Shown piece after piece: positions 13,841 through 51,405 of a stretch of 64,000 nt of DNA. Each line of letters opens with the position of its first letter. Position 1 is the first letter of the stretch. Source of the DNA: Halorubrum trapanicum (GTDB lineage: Archaea > Halobacteriota > Halobacteria > Halobacteriales > Haloferacaceae); NCBI RefSeq assembly GCF_002355655.1, contig NZ_AP017569.1, forward strand, positions 1,178,001-1,242,000. Direction: 5' to 3'. The notes beneath the pieces were generated by a model that was not told the origin of the DNA, made no database searches, and worked only from the letters and a program-made list of their open reading frames with translations. A program made the translations under genes and the position numbers.

Positions 13841-14030
13841 TTTCTGTGGCGACGAGAGCCGCACGAATAACACTTCTGACGCCCCACTCCTCTCGATCCC
13901 GCAGTGAATGAGACCCCGGGCCCGGCTCCGGTCAGCACAGGCGCGGAGACGATCCACGGCGGGAGTGAGTATCGCAGATCGATGGCGACGAAAACGTATT
14001 TAAATAGCCACGAGCGACGGCGACGAGGGG

Positions 14031-14420
14031 CTATAAAAAGGGGTGCGGTGGCGCGCCTGCGAGCGGCCGGAGCGAAGCGGAGGCCGCGAGCCAGCCCGCG
14101 AGGGACGCCGCGAACGCCCGCAGGGCGTGAGCGGCGAGGTTGGGGAGGCGTGAGGTGCTGTGCGGTCGCGGTCGGGCGGGACTCAAAGGGGCAGTCGCGA
14201 GGGCGAAGCACGCCGCAGCAAGCAGCGTGGCGCTACGCGCCACGGGCAGCCGGCGGCGAAGCCGCCGGCGACACCGCAGCGAGGGAGCGACAGCGACCGA
14301 GCGAGGAGCGCAGCAAGGCGCGCGAGCCGTCGCGGCTGGGGCTTTGGAGGTCGTCAGCGCAACCCGATCGAATATTTATAAACAGCAGACAGCAACACCG
14401 CGCTCCGACTTATAAACGAC
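14031..14420 (+). repeat. Structured dispersed repeat, copy A
   Basis: This is one of five copies of an intergenic family in the window. It begins at a TATA-like ctataaaaag (14031-14040) and has a first hairpin, then a second hairpin whose arms CGCCGC/GCGGCG flank variable bases. Next come the conserved block GGGAGGCGTGAGGTGC and ACTCAAAGGGGCAG, a variable domain with two strong local hairpins (CGTGGCG/CGCCACG and GCCGGCGGC/GCCGCCGGC), and finally CGGCTGGGGCTTTGGAGGT. The closing stem pairs 14192-14200 with 14330-14338, including one G-U. TATA-like boxes follow at 14373-14382 and 14409-14417. It sits between divergent genes; the remaining spacer (13841-14030, 14421-14567) shows no gene, only another TATA-like box near 13998. 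Confidence 0.8.
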
Positions 14421-14567
14421 AACACTCACCACGTACTACACGTACTCCCGCAATCGTTCAAAACGGTCTCTGTAGCGACCGGCCGTTCCGACGACGACCG
14501 CTCCCGAGTCGGGTCGCCGCGGATCCGCGGGAGAAGGTATTTGCGGCCGGCAGCCCGACTCGGGGGC

Positions 14568-33324: not shown

Positions 33325-33720
33325 CGTTGAACGAGTTCAAAGCCCAGCCGTTCGTTTATAAATAGCTGACCGTAGATCGACGGTGAACGACTTCAAGGCC
33401 CCAGCCGGGAGGCGGGCGCACGCTCGCTGTCGTTCGAAAGGCGCGGAGCGCCTTTCGTGATGACGAGAGAGCTTCGCTCTCTCGAACCACGCTCCTCGTC
33501 GCCCGTTTCACTCGCTCCTGCGGTGCTTGCATCGCCTGCGCCCGCCTCCCGGCTGCCCCTTTGAGTCCCACCCCGCACGGCACCGCAGCCTCACGCCTCC
33601 CCAGCCTCGTCGGCCGCCCTCCGCGTTGCTCCGGGCGGCCGACTCCCTCGCGCGTGCTCCTCGCGGCCGCCGGGGGCGGCCGCTCGCAGGCGCGCGCCAC
33701 CGCGGTTCTATTTATAAATG
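33325..33720 (-). repeat. Structured dispersed repeat, copy B
   Basis: Read on the minus strand: TATA-like tttataaat (33711-33719), a first hairpin, CACGCGCGAGGGAGTC, a second hairpin with arms GTCGGCCGCC/GGCGGCCGAC, GAGGCTGGGGAGGCGTGAGG, GGGACTCAAAGGGGCAGCCG, a variable domain, CGGCTGGGGC, and two tandem 3' modules with a tttataaa box at 33356-33366. The main stem is 19 perfect base pairs (33537-33555 with 33402-33420), with a sequence different from copies C and D. Two further hairpins lie inside. It occupies the spacer between converging genes. Confidence 0.8.
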
Positions 33721-39224: not shown

Positions 39225-39519
39225 AAGATGGTCCGTCGGCTCTGCGGTGGTCTCGGGGTCGGTGCCGCCGCGGGGCGGTCGTGCCCCGTCGTCCTTATCG
39301 CCGGAGAATTTCGCGGCCAGCCGCCGTGAGGCGACTTCCTCTATCCTCCGAACGAACGCGTTCGTCTCGCGTCATTCGTACCCGTGCGGACTGTGTACAC
39401 ACGGATAAACTGTCGGGTCGCGTCAGGTTTGGCCGAGCGATCTTCGGCGTCGGCCCGCTTCGGCCGACGATCTCTCGCCCCGCCGACAGCGTTAGGGGAC
39501 TCCCCTGCGACCGGCTCGC

Positions 39520-40777: not shown

Positions 40778-41192
40778 TTATAAACAAACGACGGCGGTGC
40801 GGCGGCGCGCGCCTCCGAGCGCCCAGCGGGCGCGAGGAGCGTCGCGCGAGGGAGTCGGCCGACCGCAGGGAGGCCGACGAGGCTGGGGAGGTGTGAGGTG
40901 CGGTCGCTGTGCGGTCGGGTGGGACTCAAAGGGGCAGCCGCGAGGACGACGGCGCGCGACGCAAGCACCGCAGGGAGCGAGTGAAACGAGCGACCGAGGA
41001 GCGCAGCGAGCGCACCGAGTCCTCGCGGCTGGGGCTTTGGAGGTGTTCGTCGCCGATCTGCTGTCAGCTGCTTATAGCCGAGCGGCTGGAGCTTTGGAGG
41101 TGTTCGTCGCCGATCAGCAAACAGCAGTTTATAAATGAGCCACCGGAGCTTCGGCGGCGTTCATCGGCGATCCACGATCAACTACTTATAAA
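40776..41192 (+). repeat. Structured dispersed repeat, copy C
   Basis: TATA-like tttataaac (40777-40785) is followed by the first hairpin (GCGCCCAGCGGGCGC), GCGCGAGGGAGTC, a hairpin with arms GTCGGCC/GGCCGAC, GAGGCTGGGGAGG, and ACTCAAAGGGGCAGCCGC. The 12-bp main stem pairs 40935-40946 with 41020-41031 and includes an A-U pair where copy D has G-C. Three tandem 3' modules start at 41027, 41084 and about 41143, with boxes at 41071-41077, 41128-41136 and 41185-41192. The last box overlaps the stop of the gene ending at 41186. Confidence 0.8.
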
Positions 41193-49016: not shown

Positions 49017-49440
49017 TTTTTAAGCGGTGGCGCGTGCCTGCGAGCGACCGCCCTCGGCGGCCGCGAGGAGCACGCGCGAGGGACGCGGTGAGCGAGAGGC
49101 GACCGCAGGGAGCCCGAGCGAACCGCGAGGCTGGGGAGGCGTGAGGTGCGGGTGCCGTGCGGGGCGGGTCTCAAAGGGGCAGCCGCGAGGGCGAAGCCTG
49201 ACGACGCAAGCACCGCAGGGAGCGTAGCGACCGAGGAGCGCAGCGAGTCACGCGAGCCCTCGCGGCTGGGGCTTTGGAGGTCTCCGCCGTCGAGACACAG
49301 CCGCCCATTTATAAGTAAAGGACTGGGGCTTTGGCGGTGTTGGCCGTCGATCCACAAACGCCCATTTATAAGCGAACGGCTGGAGATTTGGCCGTGTTCG
49401 TCGCCGAGGTGTAGTCGCTCATTTATAAGGGGCGGTCGTG
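49017..49440 (+). repeat. Structured dispersed repeat, copy D
   Basis: It begins with TATA-like tttttaag, then the first hairpin (GACCGCC/GGCGGCC), CACGCGCGAGGGAC, a hairpin with arms CGCGGT/ACCGCG, GAGGCTGGGGAGGCGTGAGG, CTCAAAGGGGCAGCCGC and CAAGCACCGCAGGGAGCG. The 12-bp main stem pairs 49180-49191 with 49257-49268. Three tandem modules begin at 49264, 49320 and 49378, each ending in ATTTATAAG (49307, 49364, 49421). It fills most of the 600-base spacer between the alcohol dehydrogenase and the small gene at 49575; nothing else is seen there. Confidence 0.85.
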
Positions 49441-50160: not shown

Positions 50161-51405
50161 ATGGAGGTGCGTCGAACTGCGCCGGTCAAACTTGTTGTTC
50201 CCGACAAGCGGTACGACGACCTCCACGAATCCGCGCGACAGTTCCTTCACTGTGCGAATCGTGCCGCTGAATTCTGTTGGGACGACGACTCCTACGCCAA
50301 CTGCGTTACGGCGAACTCGACCGCACGGGACGCGCTCTACGAACAACTACGAGAGGAAACTGATCTTACTGCGAACCTCGTTCAAGCGGCTATCCGTCGT
50401 GCCGTCCAAGCGACGAAAGGATGCGTCGAACGGTGGAAACAGGGCAAGCGGGTGAGCCAGCCGGAGTTCACGTCGTGGAGCATGGTCTACGACAAGCGAA
50501 GCGCGACGTTCTACCGCGACCGTGTGTCTCTTTCGACCGTCAACGGGCGCGTCGAGTGCGACTTTGAACTTCCGGCGGATAGCCCGACTCCCTACGAACA
50601 GTACGTTCTCTCGGAGGACTACGAGTTCCGGGCGAGCACACTGCAATACGACAAGGCAACTGACGAGTTCTATTTCCACATCACGACGCGGAAGTACGAT
50701 ACCGACGAATCCGAGGTTTCGGAAGATACCGAGCACCAAACAGTCCTCGGTATCGACCTCGGCGTCAACAGCCTCGCAGTCGCTTCGACCGGCACGTTCT
50801 GGCAGGGCGACGAATACGATCACTGGTGCCGTGAATTCGAGAAGCGGCGTGGTGAGATGCAACAGCGCGGGACGCAACCCGCGCACAACGCCCTGCTTCG
50901 CCTCGGAAAGCGCGAAGAAGCGTGGCGGAAGCAGTACATCCACACGGTTGCCAATGAGCTCGTTTCGGAAGCCATCGAACACGACTGCGACGTAATCGTG
51001 TTCGAGGAGTTAACCGACATCCGCGAGCGGCTCCCGCAGGCGAAATGGCACCACGTGTGGGCGTTCCGACGCCTGTCCGAGTACGTCTCCTACAAGGCAC
51101 CAGAGCAGGGCGTCTCCGTGGAGCAAGTCGAGCCGAACCACACGTCCCAGCGCTGTTCTCGGACGGATTGTGGGTTCACGCACGAAGCGAACCGTGACGG
51201 CGAACACTTCGAGTGCCAGAAATGCGGCTATGAGGTCAACGCGGATTACAACGCGGCGAAGAATATCGGGGTACGGTATGCCCGAAAGCGGAAACACAGA
51301 CTCCGCTCCTCGCCCAAGTCGGGGAGCGGAGACGCACCAGTAGACGTGCGTGTAAATGGTGGGACGTTGAACGGCAAGAGTCACCAGTCCATTGCTGGCG
51401 ACTGA
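50161..51405 (+). CDS. tnpB: TnpB RNA-guided nuclease-family protein
   Basis: This 414-residue protein has an N-terminal helix-rich wedge, then a RuvC-like core with Asp in GIDLGVNSLAVAS, Glu in VIVFEELTDIRE and the last Asp in NADYNAAKNIGVRY. A four-Cys zinc finger (CSRTDCGF ... CQKCGY) lies between the last two. All catalytic residues are kept, so it could be an active omega-RNA-guided DNA endonuclease. In other haloarchaea the 3' end of tnpB is covered by a sense overlapping RNA. Codon use is less GC-biased than the neighbours, in keeping with transfer. Confidence 0.95.
   Translation: MEVRRTAPVKLVVPDKRYDDLHESARQFLHCANRAAEFCWDDDSYANCVTANSTARDALYEQLREETDLTANLVQAAIRRAVQATKGCVERWKQGKRVSQPEFTSWSMVYDKRSATFYRDRVSLSTVNGRVECDFELPADSPTPYEQYVLSEDYEFRASTLQYDKATDEFYFHITTRKYDTDESEVSEDTEHQTVLGIDLGVNSLAVASTGTFWQGDEYDHWCREFEKRRGEMQQRGTQPAHNALLRLGKREEAWRKQYIHTVANELVSEAIEHDCDVIVFEELTDIRERLPQAKWHHVWAFRRLSEYVSYKAPEQGVSVEQVEPNHTSQRCSRTDCGFTHEANRDGEHFECQKCGYEVNADYNAAKNIGVRYARKRKHRLRSSPKSGSGDAPVDVRVNGGTLNGKSHQSIAGD

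Follow-up and report, generated by a model that had tools for sequence, protein, structure and literature searches.

Within a 64,000-nucleotide stretch of the Halorubrum trapanicum genome (hereafter the window), a repeat occurs in four full copies, each of which sets three guanines against three guanines between two short helices, and the question raised by this locus is what such a symmetric G-rich loop belongs to. In the reference copy, the GGG/GGG loop is flanked by the CAAAG/CTTTG and CAGCC/GGCTG helices (49172-49276), the latter being the start of an inner helix with an actual length of 13 bp (49180-49192 / 49256-49268). RNA folding and DNA folding of this copy give the same core hairpin, with folding z-scores of -3.95 and -2.56, respectively. 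The preliminary description assigned both pairings to all four copies; they are perfect in two of the four, while the 33.5-kb copy has a single A.C mismatch in its outer helix (CAAAG/CCTTG) and the 14.2-kb copy a single T.G pair in its inner helix (CAGTC/GGCTG). The hairpin, earlier described as one element, is indeed present, but is actually one module, termed here domain B, of a class-wide repeat family.

Table. Features of the repeat in the window (positions counted from the first nucleotide of the window)
Feature	Position	Strand	Evidence or remark
Domain B hairpin, reference copy	49158..49282	+	covariance model, 127.3 bits, E 1.5e-22, a score by construction, this copy being among the seed sequences of the model
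Outer helix 5' arm CAAAG	49172..49176	+	pairs with 49272-49276
Internal loop 5' side GGG	49177..49179	+	GGG in 222/224 copies; no change among 37 diverse copies
Inner helix 5' arm, 13 bp	49180..49192	+	pairs with 49256-49268; starts with CAGCC, 49180-49184
Variable upper stem and apex with conserved GACGCAAGCACCGCAG...GAGGAGCGCAGCGAG motif	49193..49255	+	alignment, pair counts
Inner helix 3' arm, terminal GGCTG 49264-49268	49256..49268	+	pair counts, RNA and DNA folds
Internal loop 3' side GGG	49269..49271	+	GGG in 207/222 copies, this side left unanchored
Outer helix 3' arm CTTTG	49272..49276	+	compensated variants in other copies
Second domain B copy	40913..41045	+	covariance model, 115.5 bits
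Third copy; nested hairpin pair inserted in apex, one outer-helix mismatch	33388..33577	-	67.8 bits
Fourth copy; subfamily with inverted-repeat ends	14170..14352	+	62.5 bits
Domain A, 5' module: stems P1 (GCGCGTGC/GCACGCGC) and P2, then GAGGCTGGGGAGG	49024..49150	+	aligned copies; 5' boundary GCGGTGGCGCG
Three tandem 57-bp units, each opening with the 3' block (GCTGGGGCTTTG or diverged forms), each with TTTATAA	49265..49435	+	motif matches 49265, 49322, 49379; unit consensus

Domain B measures 105-133 nt in most copies and constitutes, in Halorubrum, the 3' module of a ~250-bp unit, the 5' module of which, domain A, has a stem P2 with strong covariation in 128 copies. The Halorubrum unit is followed by 0-5 extra tandem 57-bp units that repeat its 3' half GGCTGGGGCTTTGG and carry TTTATAA; in the window, the 3' blocks of the units at 49322 and 49379 have no 5' partner of their own. 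TATA boxes were rejected as promoters of the element, their spacing not being fixed and none being found upstream of domain A in other genera. Outside the Halorubrum-type arrangement, the hairpin occurs alone, as 5'-to-5' inverted pairs, or with tandem 3' ends, and 51 of the 137 copies of the GAAAG type have a 5'-to-5' partner. In a Haloarcula-like genus (g29), two inverted copies joined by a linker of about 22 bp make up a unit of ~268 bp; its end points recur (query 650 and 918) and its termini are AGCCAGAAAG...CTTTCTGGCT. Its 45-bp tandem 3' ends vary in number among genomes at one orthologous site, and the orthologous site of the pair is empty in other genomes; an unrelated palindromic insert with ends GAGCCTGTCCGAAAAAC occupies this site in G404 (L426). 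Derivatives of the hairpin include collapsed copies in which GAAAGGGGCC abuts GGGGGCTTTC (L203) and a shortened copy in G176 from which the stretch separating two GGCTGGGG motifs is missing.

Longer units with inverted-repeat-like ends (GATAGCGGGAGTGAGTATCGCAG...TACTACACCTACTCCCG) define a Halorubrum subfamily, seen in the window (13960-13977 and 14434-14450) and in 8-10 other copies. A cassette of the form TGGTTCGA-hairpin-TCATCACGA-hairpin-TCGAACGACA is inserted at one apex spot in the window copy at 33388-33577 and in L005, L017, L019 and L024; similar nested hairpins are found in other families, and hairpins appear to have been inserted within hairpins.

Comparison of copies across genomes upholds the earlier proposal that the G-rich internal loop is conserved and that the helices on either side of it are required. 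Nearly every copy has GGG/GGG in the loop, with a second class, GGCGA/GAGGG, at plasmid loci, and the loop is the most conserved part of the hairpin; the base is fixed and the upper stem drifts, in line with the observation that the two sequence blocks are the most conserved and the stem beyond them varies. Uncompensated breaks of CAAAG/CTTTG had been sought as a refutation; the changes are compensated instead, near-universally, giving GAAAG/CTTTC outside Halorubrum or, as an additional form inside this genus, CGAAG/CTTCG. The outermost pair is Watson-Crick in 96% of 224 distinct copies (shuffled mean 50%, maximum 61%). The sequence of the inner helix is free to vary while its pairing is kept, with two-sided changes at 12 of its 13 pairs. 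In an alignment of 37 diverse copies, which is the fairer test because the alignment of 122 copies was fitted to the model, 96.0% of cells are paired and both sides have changed at 22 of 29 pairs. For the 122 copies these figures are 96.8% and 23 of 29; none of 500 shuffles reaches any of the covariation measures, the sliding controls give 30-43%, and the covariance expected of both flanking helices is thereby confirmed.

G.T pairs outnumber A.C pairs by 100 to 22 in the 122 copies, mostly at four pairs, which suggests that a single strand is the one that folds, be it RNA or single-stranded DNA. The second stem of domain A shows no such excess (7 G.T versus 6 A.C of 1280), as palindrome correction at the DNA level would give, so that RNA is not established. 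A search of Rfam at the gathering score and at a permissive threshold returned nothing relevant to the hairpin; the sole Rfam match in the window is a leuA-Halobacteria cis-regulatory RNA (RF03001) at 39303-39355 on the reverse strand.

The 3.08-Mb genome holds about 160 copies, judging from 164 core-pattern matches with at most 2 mismatches (76 forward, 88 reverse) versus 6 for the reversed pattern. Within Halorubrum, a similar pattern with at most 1 mismatch is matched 0 to 189 times per genome, counts that include a background of roughly 5-10 matches. An exact 15-mer was found in 191 of 391 genomes, representing 55 of 86 genera; the controls gave about a dozen matches in total. With the covariance model (E <= 0.01; matches counted up to 35 per genome), 83 of 97 genomes of the class and 37 of 44 genera have one or more matches; the low-GC genome G053, perhaps a Haloquadratum, has none. 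Abundant in Halorubrum, the motif is also present in Haloparvum, Halobaculum, Haloarcula, Halorussus, Haladaptatus, Halopiger, Halostagnicola and others. The repeat family spans almost the entire class Halobacteria, and compensatory mutations maintain its pairing in most genera. The 16-mer GGACTSAAAGGGGCMG also occurs as a chance match in bacteria and in 48 viral contigs; its 3' partner is absent from all of these contigs and from the bacterial chance matches, and accompanies most of the haloarchaeal ones. An origin of the repeat from viruses was rejected, as none of the 48 contigs carries the fold.

The copies are placed in a characteristic genomic setting, for which the figures are approximate, as gene calling relied on a home-made finder based on codon usage. 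Nearly all of 59 copies in 800 kb are intergenic, one overlapping a called gene by 54 bp; 27 of the 59 lie between converging genes, compared with 116 of 582 gaps in the background, and copies are often found a few tens of bases past a stop codon. Orientation is even in tandem gene contexts (13 and 10). Neighbouring copies tend to face each other across one gene or a small number of genes, and as these bracketed genes look ordinary, we rejected an autonomous unit between facing copies in Halorubrum. Single genes are bracketed by two facing copies near 1016181-1017894 and 1351327-1353654 of G000:C1, an arrangement kept in G152; the genes appear to be thiazole-synthase-like and cysteinyl-tRNA synthetase-like.

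Turnover of the copies appears to be slow, as 24 of 25 mapped copies are common to G000 and G152, which share about 92% identity. The orthologous site of the copy at 49158..49282 is filled in G152, G110 and G037, empty in G011, G306 and G357, and occupied by an opposite-strand copy in G206. No target duplication was seen, including at 14 unit flanks that have no direct duplication, nor was any excision event in the compared genomes. An ORF resembling the IS200/IS605 TnpB (OrfB) lies at 50161-51405 (+) of the window, 0.7 kb downstream of the same copy; other hairpin copies have no such neighbour.

We consider it rather probable that the family is a class-wide, non-coding, non-autonomous palindromic mobile repeat of Halobacteria that works as REP/REPIN or SMR elements do, with the G-loop motif as its recognition hairpin. 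This interpretation draws on the observed structure, compensatory constraint, copy number, distribution and unit ends; the mobility of the repeat and the existence of a protein that reads it are what we infer. Copy numbers that are high and differ among genomes, the inverted pairs, the nested as well as tandem derivatives, and sites that are filled, empty or occupied on the other strand speak for a mobile repeat, whereas the lack of target duplication, the slow turnover and the concentration of the G.T excess at four pairs speak against it. The family would spread, or would once have spread, as non-autonomous mobile DNA, and a protein would read the hairpin on one strand in its single-stranded state, either as DNA at replication or as RNA. 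Such a protein would use the SAAAG-GGG/GGG-CTTTS base, for which reason the base may be fixed while the upper stem, which need only stay paired, drifts; slippage at the palindromes could have produced the tandem 3' ends and the collapsed copies. No mobilising enzyme was identified, and Y1 transposases are missing in several copy-rich genomes. The result is an apparently uncatalogued, strongly covarying repeat family that extends over nearly the whole of a well-studied archaeal class, and with the fixed part (the G-loop base) and the free part (the upper stem) distinguished, the way in which haloarchaeal small repeats move becomes directly testable.

Several known systems resemble the family in part. 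The SMR-A small mobile repeats of Haloquadratum walsbyi (HqIRS42/43/55), the mobilisation of which was called enigmatic and the families of which reportedly have no sequence similarity to one another (PMC3119063), have about 110 bp, inverted ends, no target duplication, tens of copies and palindromes nested in palindromes. The length of domain B (105-133 nt) and the absence of duplication in the flanks listed agree with this description; compared by description only, our repeat differs in being class-wide and in having a fixed G-loop hairpin, domain A and inverted pairs. PATEs (palindrome-associated transposable elements) of haloarchaea are likewise non-coding and palindromic without target duplication, with ends derived from IS605-type transposons (PMC3119063), and a non-exhaustive search found no relation of the hairpin repeat to such ends. 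The likeness to MITEs consists in short non-coding repeats, some with inverted ends, as in the Halorubrum subfamily ending in GATAGCGGGAGT; of the terminal inverted repeats and target-site duplication of MITEs only inverted ends are found here, and no transposon with matching ends was identified. Integron attC sites also combine a fixed hairpin base, a symmetric unpaired spacer and a variable upper stem; our repeat has another base sequence and no integron layout, so the analogy is one of form only. Searches of the open-licence literature on haloarchaeal repeats, REP/RAYT, structured RNA and RPA-linked RNA turned up no description of the family, and an earlier one may exist elsewhere.

A parallel in arrangement exists with REP/BIME/REPIN elements and their RAYT (TnpA-REP) enzymes, which also comprise multi-copy intergenic imperfect hairpins in inverted pairs with one strand distinguished, and our repeat shares the intergenic location, multiple copies and inverted pairing. 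A REP-type element moved by a Y1 transposase (IS200/IS605 or RAYT), or a PATE-like derivative of IS605-type ends, would account for a hairpin with an internal loop, the inverted pairs, the intergenic placement and the lack of target duplication, and Y1 transposases are present in 41 of 52 genomes of the genus. We nevertheless hold this to be unlikely. RAYT-associated REP/REPINs have GTAG or GTGG 0-2 nt 5' of the stem (PMC6006769), whereas no GTRG foot adjoins the stem here: it is preceded by GGGYGGGACT, GTGG, where present, is 4 nt off, and many copies have GCGG. The stem is also much longer and variable. A Y1 transposase as a general requirement was rejected, since seven genomes with roughly 40 to 100 copies (G006, G009, G011, G015, G186, G193 and G291) have no PF01797 match, past presence being possible. 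The enrichment between converging genes, often shortly past a stop codon, is what would be expected of a cis-acting RNA element in 3' untranslated regions, a terminator or stabiliser selected at each site; this appears improbable in view of the even orientation in tandem contexts, the near absence in some congeners, and orthologous sites both filled and empty. A G-quadruplex, suggested in the preliminary description, is very improbable. Many copies do combine GGGYGGGACTSAAAGGGG with another G-run across the hairpin, and collapsed copies have four close G-runs (L203), but both flanking helices are under compensatory constraint, only two G-runs are near-universal, each flanked by conserved duplex, and the upstream GGGYGGG becomes GGGTGG in some genera and is absent from the plasmid-locus class, in which the loop itself is GGCGA/GAGGG. 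Protein binding at the G-loop hairpin, the other suggestion made there, is a plausible proposal.

A candidate reader or source of the hairpin is provided by a plasmid gene. In copy-poor genomes, a gene for a protein of ~290-300 aa (AHG05523 family) is often preceded by the hairpin, in divergent orientation and at a distance of 0.44-0.65 kb. The protein has an OB fold at its C terminus, weakly matched by PF01336, and its OB part matches NCBIfam replication factor A at E 5e-14. The hairpin is found at the same place and orientation in 18 of 30 loci of the closest homologues (E < 1e-5) and, by pattern, in about 25, many of them with the second class GAAAG-GGCGA...GAGGG-CTTTC; these loci are related by descent and are not 30 independent events. 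Plasmid records containing the gene number 194; no phage record contains it. Co-occurrence gives no support for it as an obligate partner of the repeat: several of its loci, that on pNRC200 among them, lack the hairpin, and several Halorubrum genomes rich in copies of the repeat do not have the gene.

These loci invite a structured RNA explanation, in which non-coding RNAs, perhaps ligands of the OB-fold/RPA-like protein, would have domain B as their 3' module, and the copies scattered over the genome would be RNA genes or derived from such genes. The asymmetry of G.T over A.C and the fixed place and orientation beside a conserved structured region argue for it, and we find it unlikely: a range of 0 to about 190 copies within one genus is odd for an RNA gene, and the gene and the hairpin occur without each other as described. 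It is conceivable, if doubtful, that Halobacteria possess a new hairpin-reading system, in which a factor, possibly the plasmid OB-fold/RPA-like protein, would read the strand-specific GGG/GGG (or GGCGA/GAGGG) hairpin as single-stranded DNA or RNA, the repeat having spread without a Y1 transposase. The linked OB-fold protein is open to purification and assay. The region about 400 bp upstream of its gene (L482-L511), which has no Rfam match, is long, strongly conserved, visibly structured and non-coding, with TTTTAGCCCGGAACGGGC...GGAATGGTCGGTCGCGAGCGACGC... and a long hairpin, and is a candidate for a large structured RNA or DNA element; it is common to plasmids of many genera, including pNRC200 of Halobacterium salinarum NRC-1 (L512).
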